The notes beneath the pieces are model-generated. The model saw only the letters and a list, made by a program, of their open reading frames with translations, was not told where the DNA came from and did no database searches. A stretch of 64,000 nucleotides of DNA from Halobellus sp. MBLA0158 (GTDB lineage: Archaea; Halobacteriota; Halobacteria; Halobacteriales; Haloferacaceae). A program made the translations under genes and the position numbers. Of this stretch, positions 2,149-10,795 are shown piece after piece; position 1 is the first letter of the stretch, and the number at the start of each line of letters is the position of its first letter. The stretch covers positions 248,001 through 312,000 of the forward strand of contig NZ_JBGNYA010000001.1 in NCBI RefSeq assembly GCF_041477585.1. The letters are read 5' to 3'.

Positions 2149-2610
2149 CTACCGCTCGGCGTGCTCGTCGACGACGAGGACGGGCACCTGCGTCTCCCGC
2201 AGGACGTGCTCGGCGACGCTCCCGAGCAGCGCCCGCGAGAGGCCCGAGCGGCCGTGCGATCCCATCACGACGAGGTCGATGTCGTTCTCCTCGGCGAACT
2301 TCCGGATCGCACGGGCCGGCTGACCGGCGCGGACGTGCTCTTCGACCGTCAGACCGTGTTCGGCGGCCGCGTCGGCGACCTGGCCGGTCGCCCGCTCGGC
2401 GCTCTCTTTGACCTCGGGCATCTCGTCGAGGTGGCCCTGACGGATGCGGTCGACCTGTTCGGTCCCCAGCGAGTAGCTGGTGGCGTCGACGTCGATGACG
2501 TAGAGCGCGTGGATCGTCGCGCCGTACTTCTCGGCGAGGTCGATCGCGTGGTCGACGGCGACCTCGGCGGTGTCGCTTCCGTCGGTCGGAACGAGGATGG
2601 TGTCGTACAT
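2149..2610 (-). CDS. universal stress protein (UspA family)
   Basis: A 153-residue single-domain Usp protein. It begins with the family-typical MYDTILVPTDGSD and carries the ATP-binding G-x2-G-x9-G-S signature near residues 117-131 (GSHGRSGLSRALLGS), so it is probably of the nucleotide-binding type. Its ATG overlaps the stop of the upstream symporter gene by one base (TGATG), placing it in the same transcript. UspA genes are often coupled to transporter genes in haloarchaea and may sense energy state for the permease; that role is inference. Confidence 0.93.
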   Translation of the reverse strand: MYDTILVPTDGSDTAEVAVDHAIDLAEKYGATIHALYVIDVDATSYSLGTEQVDRIRQGHLDEMPEVKESAERATGQVADAAAEHGLTVEEHVRAGQPARAIRKFAEENDIDLVVMGSHGRSGLSRALLGSVAEHVLRETQVPVLVVDEHAER

Positions 2611-4262
2611 CAGTCGTCACCGGGGGCGTGACCCCCGTCTGTCGCCGCGACGTCTTCCGCGCTCTCGGTTCGGGACATCGGCTCGGGGCTGTGACACTGC
2701 CGGACCAGCCGCTTCGTCGACTCCGGCGGGTCCTCTGTCACGTACGAGACCGCGATCGTGATCGCGAACACGAGCGGCGTGCCGACCAAGGCGGCGCCGA
2801 TCGCGGGGAAGACGTCCCCGAAGGCCTGGCTGAACGGGAGGATGAGGTCGTTGACGACGGCCGCGATCCAGATCGCGAGCCCGACGGACATCCCCGCGAG
2901 GGCGCCCTGGCGGTTCGTCTTCTCCCACCACAGCCCGAGGAAGAACATCGGGAACAGCACGATCGCCGCCAGCGAGAACGCCAGGGCGACGAGCTGACCG
3001 ATGAGGGCCGGCGGGTCCAGCGCCGTGACCGTGACGATGACCCCCAGGAGGACGATCGTCCCGCGGCCGACGAGCACCTGCTCGCGCTGGGTCGCGTCGG
3101 GGTTGATGATGTTGGTGTAGATGTCGTGAGAGACCGCCGAGGAGGCGGTGATGAAGAGCCCGGCCGTGGTCGCGATGGCGGCGGCGATGCCGCCGGCCGC
3201 GACGAGGCCGACGAACCACGTCGGGAGGCTCGACAGCTGCGCCGCGAGCACGACGATGAGGTCGCCCTCGCCGCCGGACATCCCGCCGGAGGCGGCGTAG
3301 GTCGGGCCGTACTGCGAGGCGTCGTAGAGGTCGACGCCGAAGGCCGCCAGCGCCGGCGCGCCCCAGTACAGCAGCATGATGAAGAACAGCCCCCAGACGG
3401 TCGAGTGGCGGGCGGTCCGCTCGTTCTCGACCGTGTAGAAGCGGACTAAGACGTGCGGGAGCCCGCAGGTCCCGAAGACGAGCGAGAACGCGGTCGCGAT
3501 CCACAGGAAGTACGAGGCGTTGGCGAACGGCTGGGAGAACTCGGCGTTGAGGTCGCTGATGAGCGCGCCGTACTCGATCTGCGGCAGGACGGTCGAGTAG
3601 CCGTTGACGATGCCGACGACGTAGACCGCCGCGAGGAAGGCGACGATGAGGATGACGTACTGGACGGCCATATTCTTCGTCGCGCCCATCATCCCCGAGA
3701 GGGTCAGGTAGGCGACGGTGATCGCCATCATCACGACGACCATCGTGACGTAGTCGGTCCCGAAGACGTAGAGGCCGACGAGGCCCATCCCGCGCGCCTG
3801 CCCGACGGAGTAGACGAACCCGATCAGGATCGTCGTCGCCGCGCCGAGCGCGCGGGCCGTATCGGAGTTGAAGCGGTCGCCCACGAAGTCGGGGGCGGTG
3901 TACTTCCCGAACCGGCGCATCTGCGCCGCGAGGAAGATCAGGAGGACGAAGTAGCCCGCGGTCCAGCCGATGATGAACGCCAGGCCGTAGAAGCCAGACA
4001 GCGCCACCAGCCCGGCCAGACCGAGGAACGACGCCGCGGACATCCAGTTCGCGCCGATGGCCATCCCGTTTTCGATGTTCCCGATCGAGCGGCCGGCGAC
4101 CCACATCCCCTCGGTGTCGGCGACCTTGAACAGGTAGCCGACCACGAGGAACAGCGCCAGCATCGCGACGACCATCACGGCCGGGATCGGCTTGAACGAA
4201 ATGTCGAGCGCCTCCGGCAGGAGATCGCCGGACTGCAGCAGGACCGACGCGGCGGCGCTCAC
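2610..4262 (-). CDS. sodium:solute symporter (SSS family), acetate/monocarboxylate type, large subunit
   Basis: A 550-residue polytopic membrane protein of the solute:sodium symporter family with about 13 hydrophobic segments. It resembles ActP-type acetate permeases (segments such as MWVAGRSIGNIENGMAIGAN and SAASFLGLAGLVALSGFYG). It starts with GTG inside the 3' end of the DUF4212 gene (4-base GTGA overlap), and the UspA gene is attached downstream. The DUF4212 partner and the adjacent acetyl-CoA synthetases indicate uptake of acetate or another short carboxylate with Na+. The substrate is inferred from context rather than shown by the sequence. Confidence 0.9.
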   Translation of the reverse strand: MSAAASVLLQSGDLLPEALDISFKPIPAVMVVAMLALFLVVGYLFKVADTEGMWVAGRSIGNIENGMAIGANWMSAASFLGLAGLVALSGFYGLAFIIGWTAGYFVLLIFLAAQMRRFGKYTAPDFVGDRFNSDTARALGAATTILIGFVYSVGQARGMGLVGLYVFGTDYVTMVVVMMAITVAYLTLSGMMGATKNMAVQYVILIVAFLAAVYVVGIVNGYSTVLPQIEYGALISDLNAEFSQPFANASYFLWIATAFSLVFGTCGLPHVLVRFYTVENERTARHSTVWGLFFIMLLYWGAPALAAFGVDLYDASQYGPTYAASGGMSGGEGDLIVVLAAQLSSLPTWFVGLVAAGGIAAAIATTAGLFITASSAVSHDIYTNIINPDATQREQVLVGRGTIVLLGVIVTVTALDPPALIGQLVALAFSLAAIVLFPMFFLGLWWEKTNRQGALAGMSVGLAIWIAAVVNDLILPFSQAFGDVFPAIGAALVGTPLVFAITIAVSYVTEDPPESTKRLVRQCHSPEPMSRTESAEDVAATDGGHAPGDD

Positions 4263-4765
4263 TGCACCTCACCCCCGTCGGCGGCGGCCGTCTCGGCGTC
4301 GGCGTCGCCGCCCGCGTCGACCTCGGCGGTCGAGTGGTCGATGCCGTACTTCTCGTCGAGCCTGTCGCGCCGGCGCGAGTAGATGAACGCCAAGACCAGC
4401 GAGCTCGTCGGCGCGAGGAACGCGACCGAGAAGTAGTGCGCCGGGAAGTCGATGATCGGGATCGGCTGGGTCATCAGCCCGGGCGCCAGGTACGTCGCCG
4501 TCACCGGGCCCCACGTGAGGACGACCCAGGCGAGAAATCCCGCCCAGACCTGCTTCAGGTGGTCGCGCATAAACGGCGTGCTCGGCTTCAGGAGGTTGAT
4601 TTCGGCCTCCAGGTAGTCGACGTCGCCGTCGGCGACGCCGCCGTCGGGGACGGCCCGGCCTCGGTCGTCGGTTTCGGTGCAGTCGTCCGTCGCGTCTCCG
4701 GCCCGGTCCGCCGCTACGCCCCCGCTGGGAGCGCCGGCCGCGCCGTGAGTGTCTGTGTCTGTCAT
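4259..4765 (-). CDS. DUF4212 protein, small subunit of sodium/solute symporter
   Basis: A 168-residue protein with an acidic N-terminal extension of about 55 residues, then a DUF4212 core with two hydrophobic segments (around residues 75-95 and 115-135) and a charged C-terminal tail. DUF4212 proteins are the small partner of SSS-family symporters and are almost always encoded directly before the large subunit, as here (GTGA overlap). The ATG at 4765 follows the acs stop codon by only 16 nt, so acs, DUF4212, symporter and uspA look like one operon. The frame extends further upstream, but only into acs coding sequence. Confidence 0.88.
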   Translation of the reverse strand: MTDTDTHGAAGAPSGGVAADRAGDATDDCTETDDRGRAVPDGGVADGDVDYLEAEINLLKPSTPFMRDHLKQVWAGFLAWVVLTWGPVTATYLAPGLMTQPIPIIDFPAHYFSVAFLAPTSSLVLAFIYSRRRDRLDEKYGIDHSTAEVDAGGDADAETAAADGGEVQ

Positions 4766-4781: not shown

Positions 4782-6776
4782 TCAGTCCTGTACCTGTACA
4801 CGGATCTCCTCGACGATCTCGGGGTTGCGGAGCGTGGAGGTGTCACCCAGTTCCTCGCCGTTGGCGATGTCCTCCAGGAGCCGCCGCATAATCTTCCCGG
4901 ACCGGGTCTTCGGGAGTTCGGGCGTGAAGATCACCTGCTCGGGGCGGGCGATCGGGCCGATGGCGTTCTCGACGCCCGCGACGATCCGCTCGCGGAGGTC
5001 GTCGTCGCCGGCGTGGCCCTCCTCGGTGATGACGTAGGCGTAGACGGCCTCGCCCTTGACCTCGTGGTCGCCACCGACGACGGCGGCCTCGGCGACGCCC
5101 TCGACGCCGACGATGGCCGACTCGATCTCCATCGTCCCCAGGCGGTGACCCGAGACGTTGATCACGTCGTCGACCCGACCCAGAACGGTGATGTAGCCGT
5201 CGTCGTCGATCTTCGCGCCGTCCTCGGGGAAGTACACCCACTCGTCGGGGTCGTCGCTGTCGGTGTCGGAGTACTCCGCCCAGTACTCCTCGATGTAGCG
5301 CTCGTCGTTGCGGTACAGCGTCCGCAACATCCCCGGCCAGGGCTTCTGGACGGTGAGGTAGCCCGCGCGGCCGGCGCCGACCTCCTCGCCCTCTGTGTCG
5401 ACGATCCGGGCGTCGACGCCGGGGAGCGGCGGCCCCGCCGACCCGGGCTTCATATCCTTCACGCCCGGGAGGGTGGTGACCATCATCCCGCCCGTCTCGG
5501 TCTGCCACCACGTGTCGACGATCGGGCACTGCTCGTTCCCGATGTGCTTGTAGTACCACTTCCACGCGCGGGGGTTGATCGGCTCGCCGACCGTGCCCAG
5601 CAGACGGAGGCTGGAGAGGTCGTGCCGTTCGGGGTACTCCGAACCCCACTTCATAAACGCCCGAATCGCCGTCGGTGCGGTGTAGAGCTGCGTCGCCTCG
5701 TACTCGTCGACGATCTGCCAGAGGCGGTCCTTGTCGGGGTGGTCCGGCGTGCCCTCGTACATCACCGTCGTCGTGCCGAGCGCGAGCGGCCCGTAGACGA
5801 TGTAGGAGTGGCCCGTGATCCACCCGATGTCCGCCGAGCAGAAGTACGTGTCATCGGGCTCGATGTCGAGGACGGCCTGGGACGTCCAGGCGGCCCACGA
5901 GAGGTAGCCCCCCGTGGTGTGTTTGACGCCCTTCGGCTGACCCGTCGTCCCCGAGGTGTACATCAGGAACAGCATGTCTTCGGCGTCGCGGGCGACGGGG
6001 TCGACCTCGGCCCCCTGGTTGGCGGCGACGAGGTCGCCGTAGTCGTGTTGAGTGCCTTTGAGATCGTGGCCGAAGCCGTCGCCGTTCGGGCCGAGACGGT
6101 CGACGACGACCGTCGCCTCGACCTCGTGGTCGACGCCCGCGAGGCCCTCGTTCGCCTTCTGGAGGTGGTCGAGCGGGTCGCCGCGGCGGTAGTACCCGTC
6201 GCAGGTGATCAGGTACTCCGAGTCCGCGGCGTTCATCCGGGTCGCGAGCGCGTCCGCCGAGAAGCCCGCGAAGACGACCGAGTGCGGCGCGCCGATCCGG
6301 GCGCACGCCAGCATCGCGATCGGCAGCTCGGGGATCATCGGCATATACATCGTGACCACGTCGTCCTCGCCGACGCCGAGGTCGCGGAGCGCCGCGGCGA
6401 ACTCGTTCACCTCGCGGTGGAGCTCCGCGTAGGTATAGGTGCGGTCGTCCTCCTCGACCGGTTCGCCGACCCACTCGATCGCGGCCTCGTCGCCGCGCTC
6501 GTCGAGGTGGCGGTCCAAGCAGTTCGCCGAGGCGTTGAGTTCGCCGCCCGTGAACCACTCGTAGAACGGCGGGTTCGAGTCGTCGAGGACGGTGTCGTAG
6601 TCGTCGTCCCACGAGAGCAGGTCCGCGGCGGCCTGCCAGCACTCCGGCCAGTTCTCCTCGAACTCCTCGTAGATCGCGTCGTCCGCGACGTTCGCCTGTT
6701 CGACGAACGCCTCGGACGGCTCGAAGACGTCCTGTTCGGCGAGCCGCGCTTCCAGTTCTACGTCGTCATCTCCCAT
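4782..6776 (-). CDS. acs: acetyl-CoA synthetase (AMP-forming), copy 1
   Basis: A 664-residue acetate-CoA ligase that converts acetate, ATP and CoA to acetyl-CoA via acetyl-AMP. It has the ANL-superfamily P-loop YTSGTTGQPKGVKHT, the Trp-rich acetate-pocket region (DTWWQTETGG) and the C-terminal KTRSGKIMRRLL motif with the lysine that is acetylated in bacterial Acs. Length is normal for the family. It heads an apparent operon with the DUF4212/SSS symporter and uspA, so uptake and activation of acetate would be co-expressed. A TATA-like element about 30 nt upstream predicts a nearly leaderless mRNA. A second acs lies just beyond the neighbouring regulator. Confidence 0.95.
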   Translation of the reverse strand: MGDDDVELEARLAEQDVFEPSEAFVEQANVADDAIYEEFEENWPECWQAAADLLSWDDDYDTVLDDSNPPFYEWFTGGELNASANCLDRHLDERGDEAAIEWVGEPVEEDDRTYTYAELHREVNEFAAALRDLGVGEDDVVTMYMPMIPELPIAMLACARIGAPHSVVFAGFSADALATRMNAADSEYLITCDGYYRRGDPLDHLQKANEGLAGVDHEVEATVVVDRLGPNGDGFGHDLKGTQHDYGDLVAANQGAEVDPVARDAEDMLFLMYTSGTTGQPKGVKHTTGGYLSWAAWTSQAVLDIEPDDTYFCSADIGWITGHSYIVYGPLALGTTTVMYEGTPDHPDKDRLWQIVDEYEATQLYTAPTAIRAFMKWGSEYPERHDLSSLRLLGTVGEPINPRAWKWYYKHIGNEQCPIVDTWWQTETGGMMVTTLPGVKDMKPGSAGPPLPGVDARIVDTEGEEVGAGRAGYLTVQKPWPGMLRTLYRNDERYIEEYWAEYSDTDSDDPDEWVYFPEDGAKIDDDGYITVLGRVDDVINVSGHRLGTMEIESAIVGVEGVAEAAVVGGDHEVKGEAVYAYVITEEGHAGDDDLRERIVAGVENAIGPIARPEQVIFTPELPKTRSGKIMRRLLEDIANGEELGDTSTLRNPEIVEEIRVQVQD

Positions 6777-6801: not shown

Positions 6802-6830
6802 CCCACATAAACGGCGGTTCTAAATATGCC
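6802..6830 (-). promoter_or_regulatory. promoter region of acs copy 1
   Basis: On the minus strand, TTTATG (about 6807-6812) lies roughly 30 nt before the acs ATG, the spacing expected for an archaeal TATA box and a very short leader. A second AT-rich stretch (ATATTTAGAA, 6817-6826) lies directly upstream of it and could be a BRE or an activator site. Its position next to the Bat-like gene makes a site for that regulator plausible, but this is not shown. Confidence 0.5.
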
Positions 6831-6899: not shown

Positions 6900-8543
6900 T
6901 TACAGCTCGGAGCGCGGCGCCGCGTCGTCGAAGAACGCCGTCAGAAGCTTCTGCTGGGCCTTTCGGAGGTGATTGTGGAGCGTCGGCGAGGAGACCTCAA
7001 GCGAGTCCGCCAGCTCCTCGGCGGTCGAGCCGCGGGGCCACTCGAAGTAGCCGCTGTGGTAGGCCGCCCGGAGGACGGTCGCCTGCCGGTCCGAGAGCCG
7101 GTCGGCGAGCCGCTCGCGGAAGCCCACGTCGGTCTCGACGGGGCGGTCCTCCTGCCGCTTCGCCGACAGCGACACCCCCGGGTACGCGTCGGTCACGGCG
7201 TCGACCGCCGCGCGGACGTCGGCGTCGCCGGGGATCTCGCCCGTGAGCGTCGCCGCGCCGTCCTCGGCGACGAGCGAGCGGACCCGCGCGCCGCGGTCGA
7301 CGAGCGCCAGGGCGGGCGCGTCGGTCACGACGACCTCGACGGCGGCGCCGTCGCCGTAGTCCTCGATGAGCCGCGTGTCGGCGACGGCGTCGGCCGCGTC
7401 GGCGTGCGACAGCACCGGATCCGCGCCCGCGCCGCGCGTCACGAGGTAGTAGAGCAGCGACCCGTCGCCGACGGGGACCGCGCCGGAGAGTTCGACCCGG
7501 CAGTCGAGCGCCCCCGAGAGGTCGGCGACGAACGACGACGCCGCGGGACAGCGGAAGTCGAGTTCGACGACGGTGTCCGCGAGGAGGAGGCGCTTCCGCT
7601 GGACCGCCGCGAGCGCGTGACCGACCTGCGTCCCGAGGACGGCGAGGGCGTCCCGGCGGGCGTCGCCCACCGGCCGCCGCACGCCGATCCCGAGCACGCC
7701 CCAGCGGGTGTCGTCCCGACGGACCGGGACCAGCGCCAGCGGGCCGCGCTCTGACTCGCGGACGCGCACGTCCCGCTCGTCGCGGGCGCGGGCGTCCGGA
7801 TCGTAGCCGTCGAGCGCCGTCTCGGCGGCGGCCGCGTCGACGCCGACGGCCTCCCGCACGGCGAACGCCTCCCCGGTCCGCTCGGCCAGCCAGGCGAAGC
7901 GGACGCCCTCGGCGTCGGCGAGGCACGCGCACGCCGTCCGAGCGGTCTCGTCGACCGTGGCGACGCCGAGCAGTTCGGCGCCCAGGTCGGCCGCGAGCGC
8001 GACGTCCCGTCCGAGGCCGTCAAGCGCCGTCGCGGCGCCGTCGAGCGCGGCCGCGACGGCCTCGCGGTCCGGGTCCGACAGGAGCGGCGCGAGGCGCTCC
8101 AGCCGCCAGCCGCCGAGCGCACAGACCACGCGCGGGGGGACGCCGTCGTCTATGAGTTCGGCCGCGAAGTGCCACCGGAGGTCCCGGGAGGAGGCGTCGA
8201 CCCCGTCGACGCGGTCGGCGACCTCGCCCACGAGCATCTGGAGGCGGCGGGGCGACACCGTAAGTAGGGGATCGTCCTCGCCCGCGCCGACGCTGCCGGC
8301 GTACTTCCGGAGGTCGTGTTCCACGCCCGCGGGCAGATAGGCGTCGCGGGCGACGTCTCCGTCCGCGTCCCTGACTGCGAGGAAGTGCGTGCCGTCGTGC
8401 GATTCGACGTCCGCGAGGCGGACGCGCGTCATCTCGCCGGGGCGGAGTCCGACCTCGCCGCCGAGTCGCAGCACGAGGTCCTCGCGGTGGGTTTCGGTGG
8501 CCCGTCGGAGCCGACGGTACTCGCTGGCGGCCGGGGGATCCAT
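6900..8543 (-). CDS. Bat-type transcriptional regulator: degenerate tyrosine-recombinase-like domain + GAF-like region + HTH-10
   Basis: A 547-residue regulator. The C-terminus (about 485-540) is a bacterio-opsin-activator HTH-10 domain (LSDRQATVLRAAY...GSTAEELADSL). The middle resembles a GAF/Bat-associated sensor region. The first 160 residues look like the catalytic fold of tyrosine recombinases: GLRPGEM (R34, box I) and RDLRWHFAAELIDDGVP (R123, box II), then GGW where LGH is usual. The box II His is replaced by Arg (R120) and no Tyr nucleophile follows, so it should not recombine DNA. The gene lies between two acs genes, so it is a good candidate regulator of acetate metabolism. The domain call for the N-terminus is by motif recognition only. 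Confidence 0.85.
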   Translation of the reverse strand: MDPPAASEYRRLRRATETHREDLVLRLGGEVGLRPGEMTRVRLADVESHDGTHFLAVRDADGDVARDAYLPAGVEHDLRKYAGSVGAGEDDPLLTVSPRRLQMLVGEVADRVDGVDASSRDLRWHFAAELIDDGVPPRVVCALGGWRLERLAPLLSDPDREAVAAALDGAATALDGLGRDVALAADLGAELLGVATVDETARTACACLADAEGVRFAWLAERTGEAFAVREAVGVDAAAAETALDGYDPDARARDERDVRVRESERGPLALVPVRRDDTRWGVLGIGVRRPVGDARRDALAVLGTQVGHALAAVQRKRLLLADTVVELDFRCPAASSFVADLSGALDCRVELSGAVPVGDGSLLYYLVTRGAGADPVLSHADAADAVADTRLIEDYGDGAAVEVVVTDAPALALVDRGARVRSLVAEDGAATLTGEIPGDADVRAAVDAVTDAYPGVSLSAKRQEDRPVETDVGFRERLADRLSDRQATVLRAAYHSGYFEWPRGSTAEELADSLEVSSPTLHNHLRKAQQKLLTAFFDDAAPRSEL

Positions 8544-8670
8544 CTGTCGTTTCGGGAGATCGTAACAGTGCGAAATAAATCTGTGCGTGATAGCGATCTT
8601 ATTTCCCGTAACGAACTTTCAGGGCTGTAACCGAGCAAAAAGCCGTTTCGGAATTCGCTTTTTCCCGAAA

Positions 8671-10662
8671 CTACTTGTCGTGGGTCCGCGATCGGAGTTC
8701 GCCGAGGATCTCGGGGTTGCGGAGCGCGGAGGTGTCGCCCAGGTCCTCGTCGTTGGCGACGGCGCGGAGCAGCCGCCGCATCACCTTCCCCGAGCGGGTC
8801 TTGGGGAGGTCGGGGGTGAAGACGACCGCCGCCGGGATCGCGACCGCGCCGATGGCGTCCTCGACGGCGTCGCGGATGCGCTGTCGGAGGTCGGCCTCTG
8901 GGGCGTCGCGCTCGGGGGCGACGTACGCGTAGATGGCGGTGCCGGTCGACTCGTCGTCGGCGCCGACGACGGCGGCCTCGGCGACGCCCTCGACGCCGAC
9001 GATGGTGGACTCTAGTTCCATCGTGCTGAAGCGCCGCCCGGCGACGTTGACCGCCTCGTCGATCCGACCGAGGAACGTGAGGTAGCCCTCTGCGTCCGCG
9101 ACGGCGCCGTCCTCGGGGTGGTACCGCCAGGGGCCGGCGTCGGGCGACTCCGAGGGAGCGACCGAGTCGGACGAGTCGGCGTCGGCCGCCGTCCGCCGGC
9201 CGTCGCGCGCGCCCCAGCCGGTCCCGTTCGCGAGCGCCCGCGGCATCCCCGGCCAGGGCCGGGTGAGCACGAGCTCGCCGGACTCGCCGGGGTCGACGGG
9301 CTCGCCGCCGGCGTCGACGACGGCCGCGCCGATTCCCGGGAGCGGCCGGCCCGCCGAGCCGGGCTTCATCGGGTCGACGCCGGGGAGCGTCGAGACGAGG
9401 ATCGCGCCGGTCTCGGTCTGCCACCACGTGTCGACGACGGGGCACTCGCCGCCGCCGATGTGCTCGCGGTACCACCGCCAGGTCGGCTCGTCGATGGGCT
9501 CGCCGACCGTGCCCAGGAGTCGGAGGCTGGAGAGGTCGTGGCGGGCGGGGTGCTCCTTCCCCCACTTCATGAACGCGCGGATCGCCGTCGGCGCCGTGTA
9601 GAACACGTCGACGGCGTGGCGGTCGACCAGTTTCCAGAGGCGGTCCTTCTCGGGGTGGTCGGCGGTGCCGCCGTAGAGGACCGTGGTCGTGCCGAGCGCG
9701 AGCGGCCCGTAGACGATGTAGGAGTGGCCCGTGATCCACCCGATGTCCGCCGAGCACCAGTGGGTGTCCTCCGGGCGGATGTCCAGCACCGAGCGCGCGG
9801 TCCAGGCGACGTGCGCGAGGTACCCGCCCGTCGTGTGGGTGACGCCCCGCGGCTCGCCGGTCGTCCCCGAGGTGTAGATGCGGAAGAGCGAGTCGGCGGC
9901 GTCGCGGGCGACGGGGTCGACTTCCGCGCCCGCGTGATCGGCGACGAGGTCGCCGTAGTCGTGGTAGCCCGGGCCGAGGTGGACGCCCTGGCCGAGGTGG
10001 TCGAGCACCACGACCTCGACGTCGTGGTCCAGCGCGAGCCGCGCGTTGTCGGCCTTGTTCTTCTGGGCGATGGCGTCGCCGCGGCGGTAGTAGCCGTCGC
10101 AGGTGACGAGGTACGCCGAGTCCGCGCGGGCCATCCGCTCGGCCAGGGCGTCCGCGGAGAAGCCCGCGAAGACGACGTTGTGGATCGCGCCCAGGCGGGC
10201 GCACGCGAGCATCGCGACGGGGAGTTCGGGCACCATCGGGAGGTACAGCGTGACCACGTCGTCCTCGCCGACGCCGAGGTCGCGGAGCGCCGCGGCGAAC
10301 TCGTTGACCTCGCGGTGGAGTTCGAGATAGGTGTAGCTCCGGGAGTCGCCGAGCGGGCCCTCCCAGACGAGCGCCCGTTGGTTCTTGCGCTCGTCGAGGT
10401 GCCGGTCGACGCAGTTGTAGGAGGCGTTCAGACGACCGTCGGGAAACCACTCGAAGGGCGGCGTCTCGCCGCCGCGGAAGACCGTCTCGGGGTCGTCGTC
10501 CCACGAGAGCAGGTCGCCCGCCCGGCGCCAGCAGTCGGGCCACTCGGACTCGAACGCGTCGTACACGTCGGGATCGGACACGGTGGCCTGCCGGCGGAAC
10601 CACTCCGGCGGCGGGATGCGCTCGCCCCCCAGTCGGGGCCGACCCGAGCCCTCTCCTGTCAT
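8671..10662 (-). CDS. acs: acetyl-CoA synthetase (AMP-forming), copy 2
   Basis: A 663-residue paralogue of the first acs, with the same motif set: YTSGTTGEPRGVTHT P-loop, DTWWQTETGA pocket and C-terminal KTRSGKVMRRLL. It differs by an insertion of about 30 residues rich in Asp/Ser in the segment after the PWPGMPRAL motif. The reaction is presumably acetate or another short acyl group to its CoA ester; substrate differences from copy 1 cannot be judged. The ATG at 10662 was chosen because the long upstream extension is low-complexity and overlaps the divergent thpR promoter region. It is followed by the regulator gene on the same strand with a 127-bp gap. Confidence 0.93.
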   Translation of the reverse strand: MTGEGSGRPRLGGERIPPPEWFRRQATVSDPDVYDAFESEWPDCWRRAGDLLSWDDDPETVFRGGETPPFEWFPDGRLNASYNCVDRHLDERKNQRALVWEGPLGDSRSYTYLELHREVNEFAAALRDLGVGEDDVVTLYLPMVPELPVAMLACARLGAIHNVVFAGFSADALAERMARADSAYLVTCDGYYRRGDAIAQKNKADNARLALDHDVEVVVLDHLGQGVHLGPGYHDYGDLVADHAGAEVDPVARDAADSLFRIYTSGTTGEPRGVTHTTGGYLAHVAWTARSVLDIRPEDTHWCSADIGWITGHSYIVYGPLALGTTTVLYGGTADHPEKDRLWKLVDRHAVDVFYTAPTAIRAFMKWGKEHPARHDLSSLRLLGTVGEPIDEPTWRWYREHIGGGECPVVDTWWQTETGAILVSTLPGVDPMKPGSAGRPLPGIGAAVVDAGGEPVDPGESGELVLTRPWPGMPRALANGTGWGARDGRRTAADADSSDSVAPSESPDAGPWRYHPEDGAVADAEGYLTFLGRIDEAVNVAGRRFSTMELESTIVGVEGVAEAAVVGADDESTGTAIYAYVAPERDAPEADLRQRIRDAVEDAIGAVAIPAAVVFTPDLPKTRSGKVMRRLLRAVANDEDLGDTSALRNPEILGELRSRTHDK

Positions 10663-10795
10663 CGTCTCATCGTCGGTGCCGGTACGGGCATAAGCCTCCC
10701 GCTCGCGGCGGGAACCGCGGGGACGTCCGGCGCTCGCGGCGGCGCCGGCCGCGCGTCCCGTCGCATTTTCACCGCCGGCGGACGTGCCCCCCGAT

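Follow-up and report, generated by a model that had tools for sequence, protein, structure and literature searches.

Introduction

Regulators of the Bat / HTH_10 (bacterio-opsin activator) family have a BAT domain followed by a C-terminal HTH_10 domain. This order is present, by Pfam, in the 547-aa protein analysed here, which is encoded in the window (the whole 64-kb stretch of DNA that was analysed). GAF, BAT and HTH_10 are common to both, but this protein has an extra N-terminal recombinase domain, a putative operator pair at its own promoter and acetate genes rather than bop nearby. The fusion architecture is already known: according to the part of Badel et al. 2021 (PMC8371274) available to this work, the archaeal tyrosine recombinase family fam30-04, grouped as such by network clustering, combines Phage_integrase, BAT and HTH_10, with GAF_2 in some members. 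For fam30-04, the same part of that article mentions neither lost catalysis nor an operator, a link to acs or a role in regulation. The 547-aa fusion fulfils the combination of Phage_integrase, BAT and HTH_10, its Phage_integrase match being under the Pfam gathering score, and fam30-04 and the acs-linked fusions are almost certainly the same proteins.

In eukaryotes, the recombinase folds of Ndc10/Cbf2, Gcr1 and the DUF3504 genes have lost catalysis and serve DNA binding (PMC3212892; PMC6077249); a domesticated eukaryotic tyrosine recombinase is also treated by Perriches and Singleton 2012 (cited in PMC6077249). As in the fusion, further DNA-binding domains accompany the fold in some of these proteins, which are transcriptional regulators. 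Unlike the fusion, they are Crypton-derived and of separate origin, and the DUF3504 genes lost the second Arg, which the fusion keeps. We know of no lox-like operator pair for any domesticated eukaryotic recombinase.

XerA/XerD and Cre have the catalytic-domain fold in common with the fusion, and the arm spacing of loxP (TTCG-N16-CGAA) is like that of its dyads, but the fusion is without their core-binding domain and has lost the catalytic Lys and His and, in many orthologues, the Tyr. The closest domain homologues are stand-alone plasmid integrases of ~200 aa (e.g. H. salinarum PHS4 WP_012289605), with ~35-40% identity in the copies compared. Like the fusion, they have dyads upstream of their own genes (at ~112 bp, sometimes at 28 bp); unlike the fusion, they usually have a complete catalytic set, lack the sensor and HTH domains, and vary in recognition-helix residues and sites.

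In H. volcanii, the operon acs7-HVO_A0155-ssf-uspA28, located downstream of the fusion orthologue, appears as a 4.6-kb transcript on acetate, with no transcript on glucose/casamino acids, and the acetate-specific induction of acetate-uptake and activation genes was published without a named regulator (PMC7746861). Inferred by locus-tag order, the H. volcanii orthologue of the fusion should be HVO_A0157, between acs8 (A0158) and acs7 (A0156); no study of such an acetate regulator (HVO_0895, HVO_A0157) turned up in our literature search. The inactivity of the family, the operator pair, the acetate linkage and the regulatory model appear to be new, no report having been found in a search that left out subscription literature and supplements.

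The fusion gene and its neighbourhood

The fusion gene and its neighbours lie on one strand, in the order acs, fusion, acs, DUF4212, SSF:

8671..10668 (-), acs2 (acetate-CoA ligase), upstream of the regulator; start approximate
6900..8543 (-), fusion regulator gene, 547 aa: recombinase-like domain, GAF, BAT and HTH_10
6807..6826 (-), acs1 promoter element TATTTAG-8 nt-TTTAT (TATA-like), a candidate HTH_10 site without binding data and without a TTTCG dyad
4782..6776 (-), acs1, the other acs gene, on the downstream side of the regulator
4259..4765 (-), DUF4212 small membrane protein, so called for its position and likeness to the Haloferax cluster; start approximate
2610..4262 (-), SSF (ActP-type) sodium:acetate symporter homologue

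The first-pass annotation, made from the sequence alone, had placed the regulator between two acs genes and advised a search for the same fusion beside acs in other haloarchaea. The placement was confirmed at this locus, and the search gave the same arrangement widely: in 59 fused loci with enough sequence, sampled across Halobacteria, acs was present on both sides in the same orientation in 55, and an SSF gene lay downstream in 53. A plasmid record of H. alexandrinus lists acs, bacterio-opsin activator domain protein, acs, DUF4212, sodium/solute symporter and universal stress protein, an order also found in H. gibbonsii as far as it is shown there. It is this conserved synteny on which the acetate link of the regulator rests; it suggests control of the acetate genes, which has not been shown experimentally.

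A pattern TAN[CT]TAG-N6..12-TATA-like, with the element ~8 nt upstream of the TATA-like box, was present at the acs1 promoter of 37/56 loci (0.3 expected). The element is a candidate HTH_10/activator site, for which there are no binding data. Its position by the TATA box of the presumed target is comparable to that of the bop upstream element.

Domain layout and predicted fold

The following features were assigned within the fusion protein:

8040..8543 (-), residues 1-168, predicted tyrosine-recombinase catalytic-domain fold; R34 and R123 kept, catalytic His (R120), Lys and Tyr (Leu) replaced
8214..8252 (-), helix 98-110 with the fused-clade signature R99 R100 x Q102 M103
7581..8024 (-), residues 174-321, helix and GAF-like sensor domain; Pfam GAF E=0.016
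7116..7577 (-), residues 323-476, BAT domain; PF15915 E=1.5e-45
6942..7097 (-), residues 483-534, HTH_10 DNA-binding domain; PF04967 E=1e-20

BAT (PF15915) and the C-terminal HTH_10 (PF04967) were both above the Pfam cut-off, in agreement with the fusion to a Bat-like sensor and HTH-10 read from the sequence at first, and HTH_10 is near invariant across the fused family. The GAF match of the 547-aa protein is sub-threshold in Pfam; Foldseek with the full-length predicted model also returned GAF/phytochrome folds, ranked behind the recombinase matches. Other arrangements were observed at a few loci. At L050 (7463-9237) the fusion is read as two overlapping ORFs (220 + 432 aa) with both dyads retained, by a frameshift or as a real split gene. 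L093 (5890-6684) and L094 (6633-7856) encode proteins of 264 and 407 aa in which the recombinase domain is joined to different additional sequence, away from acs. L148 (7001 bp, domain start ~1104) is a divergent recombinase-domain fusion, the second in its genome beside an acs-linked one, and has no good pair of TTTCG dyads upstream.

The motifs GLRPGEM, RDLRWHFAAELIDDGVP and GGW, on which the recombinase assignment was originally based, are present within residues 1-160 in the order claimed. The Pfam Phage_integrase model matched residues 8-147 under the gathering score (E=1.3e-4) and NCBIfam XerA_Arch matched residues 7-143 (E=7e-8). PDB entry 4a8e (archaeal Xer) was matched at E=1.4e-4 with the single sequence and at 4.4e-19 with a 54-member family profile, the profile search listing XerA, IntI4, XerD and Cre lower than 4a8e. 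AlphaFold2, run with an alignment of relatives, modelled residues 1-184 with pLDDT 93.5 and pTM 0.86. Foldseek of the domain model against the PDB matched Cre, XerA, XerH and IntI (best E 3.8e-7), and tyrosine recombinases made up 50/50 among the matches listed. Structure prediction with Foldseek was the check set in advance, with a fold unlike tyrosine recombinases as the refutation; the predicted fold was that of a tyrosine recombinase and no other. Residues 1-165 are thus modelled as a tyrosine-recombinase catalytic fold. Chance similarity to recombinases was ruled out by the NCBIfam, PDB (single-sequence and profile) and AlphaFold plus Foldseek matches, and another sensor fold for residues 1-160 by Foldseek. 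An N-terminal core-binding (SAM-like) domain, as in Xer/Cre, is absent, the model opening directly with the catalytic fold; the ~200-aa stand-alone relatives have no room for one either.

Paired TTTCG dyads upstream of the fusion gene

Two putative operators lie between acs2 and the fusion gene:

8550..8575 (-), proximal putative operator TTTCG-N16-CGAAA; left arm overlaps the TATA-like TTTATTT, right arm stops 6 nt short of the start codon
8646..8670 (-), distal putative operator TTTCG-N15-CGAAA, immediately behind the stop codon of acs2; its centre is ~96 bp from that of the proximal dyad

Dyads were scanned at spacings from d=8 to 24 in 157 non-redundant upstream regions. Exact TTTCG/CGAAA pairs were concentrated at d=15 (64) and d=16 (103), with at most 5 at any other spacing; when the dyads were first detected, shuffles had given 0.2-0.3 at these two spacings. 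With one mismatch allowed, at least one dyad was found in 152/157 regions (two in 106, one in 46, none in 5). The five dyad-free regions include that of L103, for which there is no upstream sequence, and those of L093 and L094, probably not true fusions. Control windows within the neighbouring acs contained dyads in 3/177 cases, and the dyads are not simply shared descent of the block, because their interior is unconserved. TTTCG dyads were found at none of 56 acs1 promoters and none of 59 acs2 promoters.

The only two exact dyads in the 64-kb window are those upstream of the fusion gene. Across the whole genome the exact pattern occurs 5 times and the reversed pattern 2 times; one of the three remaining exact sites is within a gene, the other two are without an obvious target, and no genome-wide regulon was seen. 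A whole-class scan for the paired pattern gave many matches within genes and was too noisy for a co-occurrence test.

Across loci, between 1 and 8 nt (mostly 1-4) separate the end of the proximal dyad from the first ATG/GTG. Leaderless transcripts are common in haloarchaea, and if this transcript is leaderless, the proximal dyad would cover the core promoter. Separations of the two dyads, centre to centre, are mostly 95-99 or 104-111 bp, with none at 100-103. Phasing was tested on 50 clusters at 72% identity, using one median for each: vector strength was R=0.61 at 10.5 bp, a value reached by 0/5000 uniform-phase null draws, and the best period was 10.6. The null count is strong rather than exact, because the clusters are not fully independent. 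Since the separations are phased at ~10.5 bp, the two dyads lie on one helix face, mostly 9 or 10 turns apart. Such phasing usually points to protein contact across looped DNA, looping itself being an inference here.

Sites of the lox/dif type have inverted arms that span ~26-28 bp in all around a centre of 6-8 bp. Compared with these, the outer arms of the dyads stand at the loxP distance (d=15/16) and there are no conserved inner arms; no cleavage data exist. The right half of loxP (P1 record) fits the TTCG-N16-CGAA geometry, and the left half follows by symmetry.

Which domain reads the dyads

Stand-alone relatives, which lack GAF, BAT and HTH_10, have 27-28 bp dyads (11-5/6-11) upstream of their own genes. 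These are centred at -106 to -122 (near -112) in 22/47 and at -24 to -42 (near -28) in 15/47, against 1.85 and 2.9 expected in shuffles. Their sites have other sequences and, in part, other spacings (TCG-N15 to N18-CGA), with outer arms AATCG-N15/16-CGATT in one subgroup and TGTCG-N17/18-CGACA in another, and a strict TCG-dyad test was passed by only 10/47. The -112/-28 dyads are possibly recombination or autoregulation sites, undescribed in the literature examined. Among the stand-alone proteins at L073, L075, L076, L079, L095-L098, L106, L107 and L189-L217, many intact ~200-aa integrases have such dif/lox-like upstream dyads, of clade-specific sequence.

The recombinase domain is the element shared by the fused and the stand-alone proteins with dyads, and for this reason it is probably the domain that reads them, a reading made without binding data. 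Residues at the start of helix 98-110 point to how it might do so. R99 and R100 are each present in 170/170 proteins of the fused clade, M103 in 169/170 and Q102 in 163/170, while all are variable in the stand-alone set; judged from the alignment, the fused set has gained constraint at these four positions. With HHalign, a sequence-profile alignment only, R100 falls on Cre R259 and M103 on Cre E262. In Cre, R259 forms hydrogen bonds with the C-G pair at position 10 of the loxP half-site, where its loss abolishes specificity, and E262 contacts position 9 (PMC6486577). The R100/R259 pairing could slip by one residue, since the stand-alone enzymes often have Arg at 99 and not at 100.

HTH_10 could instead bind the TTTCG dyads, leaving the recombinase domain only to dimerise or sense. 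This would be ordinary for an autoregulating HTH protein, and HTH_10 is a DNA-binding domain kept almost without change in the family; yet similar dyads stand in the same place beside relatives that have no HTH_10, and no TTTCG dyads were found near three BAT/HTH_10 paralogues of the same genome that have no recombinase domain. Arms 20-21 bp apart, moreover, fit recombinase half-sites and not a compact HTH dimer, and the fixed R99/R100/M103 sit on the recombinase recognition helix. We consider this alternative unlikely, though it keeps some weight, and the GAF/BAT/HTH part could contact the dyads in addition to the recombinase domain.

Loss of the catalytic residues

The columns R(I), K, H, R(II), H/W and Y were scored from an alignment of 170 fused proteins and 47 stand-alone relatives. 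The complete R-K-H-R-Y set was found in 0/170 fused proteins vs. 43/47 stand-alone ones. The 547-aa fusion has R34, no Lys, R120 in place of the box-II His (the change from HxxR to RxxR was read correctly at first sight), R123, W146 and Leu for Tyr, and so does not fulfil the R-K-H-R-(H/W)-Y set. In the fused set as a whole, Arg I is kept in 150/170 and Arg II in 170/170, the box-II His is lost in 164/170 (kept in 6) and the beta-strand Lys is nearly always gone. The absence of a Tyr nucleophile, also reported in the first-pass annotation, holds for the 547-aa fusion but not for its orthologues, 78 of which (from ~150 with the column filled) still have Tyr. Tyr was apparently lost later, and more than once, in the fused clade.

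By these column counts, the residues for cleavage are gone and the arginines that hold the DNA phosphates are kept. The annotation had proposed a non-cutting DNA-binding or dimerisation module, and the non-cutting DNA-binding role is supported by the incomplete catalytic set of all fused proteins, the conserved recognition-helix residues and the dyads of lox geometry at the gene's own promoter; both the inability to cleave and the binding are inferred. The DNA-binding role gains support because the dyad type is also found with stand-alone recombinases, which have no HTH_10.

The same two arginines (R34 in 150/170, R123 in 170/170), kept as the cleavage residues were lost, might instead hold a small anion or phosphorylated ligand such as acetyl-phosphate or an AMP-like molecule, the likeness to a DNA binder being mere inheritance. 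This we find doubtful: in recombinases these arginines bind the DNA backbone, and the dyads, their lox spacing and the fixed recognition-helix residues would be left unexplained. That the domain still cuts, as an unorthodox recombinase rearranging the two dyads or acting in trans, is very improbable; the mostly retained R34, R123 and W, the Tyr in about half of the orthologues and the likeness of the paired sites to recombination sites speak for it, but the set is complete in no fused protein, Lys is nearly always and His mostly lost, the 547-aa fusion has Leu for Tyr, and site and gene order are stable over 59 loci, with no inversion or loss of intervening DNA seen. We give hardly any credence to the view that the dyads have nothing to do with the protein and are hairpins or terminators in the RNA of the stretch from acs2 to the regulator: the distal dyad does abut the acs2 stop codon, but arms of 5 bp around 15-16 unconserved nt are poorly suited to form a hairpin, the dyad is found again at the core promoter, and only two spacings are allowed in a pair that is helically phased.

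Distribution and origin

At the threshold used, a single-sequence search found the domain in 217/292 Halobacteria genomes and missed it in 75. As the domain is present in so many genomes with clade-specific fixed residues, a pseudogene or recent decay was ruled out. Even within the window's own genus the regulator looks patchy, with a domain match at E 1e-5 in only 3/9 genomes. The stand-alone proteins of ~200 aa form a second population, annotated as site-specific integrase on many haloarchaeal plasmids (including those of Halobacterium and Haloarcula).

In a maximum likelihood tree of 156 sequences from both sets, one branch separates fused from stand-alone proteins (100/97 support; 100% of bootstrap trees). 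The tree is compatible with one fusion event and does not by itself fix the direction; a passage from stand-alone to fused is favoured, because intact enzymes are unlikely to have been rebuilt from dead ones.

Proposed model

The reading that we prefer is that a non-cutting, recombinase-derived domain binds the dyads of its own promoter, loops the DNA and autoregulates an acetate regulator. We regard it as probable. The predicted fold, the lost catalytic residues, the single fused clade, the synteny, the phased dyads and the dyad type in common with stand-alone relatives are results of the analysis, with the binding by this domain, the looping, the direction of regulation, the ligand and the HTH_10 target all inferred. 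The N-terminal domain would derive from a tyrosine recombinase of the haloarchaeal plasmid family that lost strand cleavage and kept site recognition. Two protomers may bind each TTTCG-N15/16-CGAAA dyad, much as Cre binds the loxP arms, and the proximal dyad would cover the regulator's own TATA box and start region. Because the distal dyad is mostly 9 or 10 turns upstream, bound dimers would be on the same side of the DNA and could come together like the partners in a recombinase synapse; the promoter would then be looped and the gene autorepressed. GAF and BAT may sense a signal tied to acetate or carbon state, and HTH_10 may act on the promoter of acs1/DUF4212/SSF, at the TAnTTAG beside the TATA box.

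In its wider form the claim is of a prokaryotic transcription factor in which a domesticated, cleavage-dead tyrosine recombinase recognises the operators and loops the promoter. It would bring about synapsis, but no cutting, at two operators of lox geometry, 9 or 10 turns apart; this ability and the site layout would come from plasmid recombinases and have become fixed in the acetate cluster throughout Halobacteria. Here we see the chances as even.

Automatic annotation puts these fusions among the recombinases, which calls for caution. If the preferred model is right, they would be a class-wide prokaryotic case of a mobile-element recombinase turned regulator, for which the intact plasmid relatives offer a before-and-after comparison. 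The model names a specific operator and specific recognition residues that can be tested, and, for the haloarchaeal genes of acetate uptake and activation, it puts forward a regulator that has apparently not been studied.
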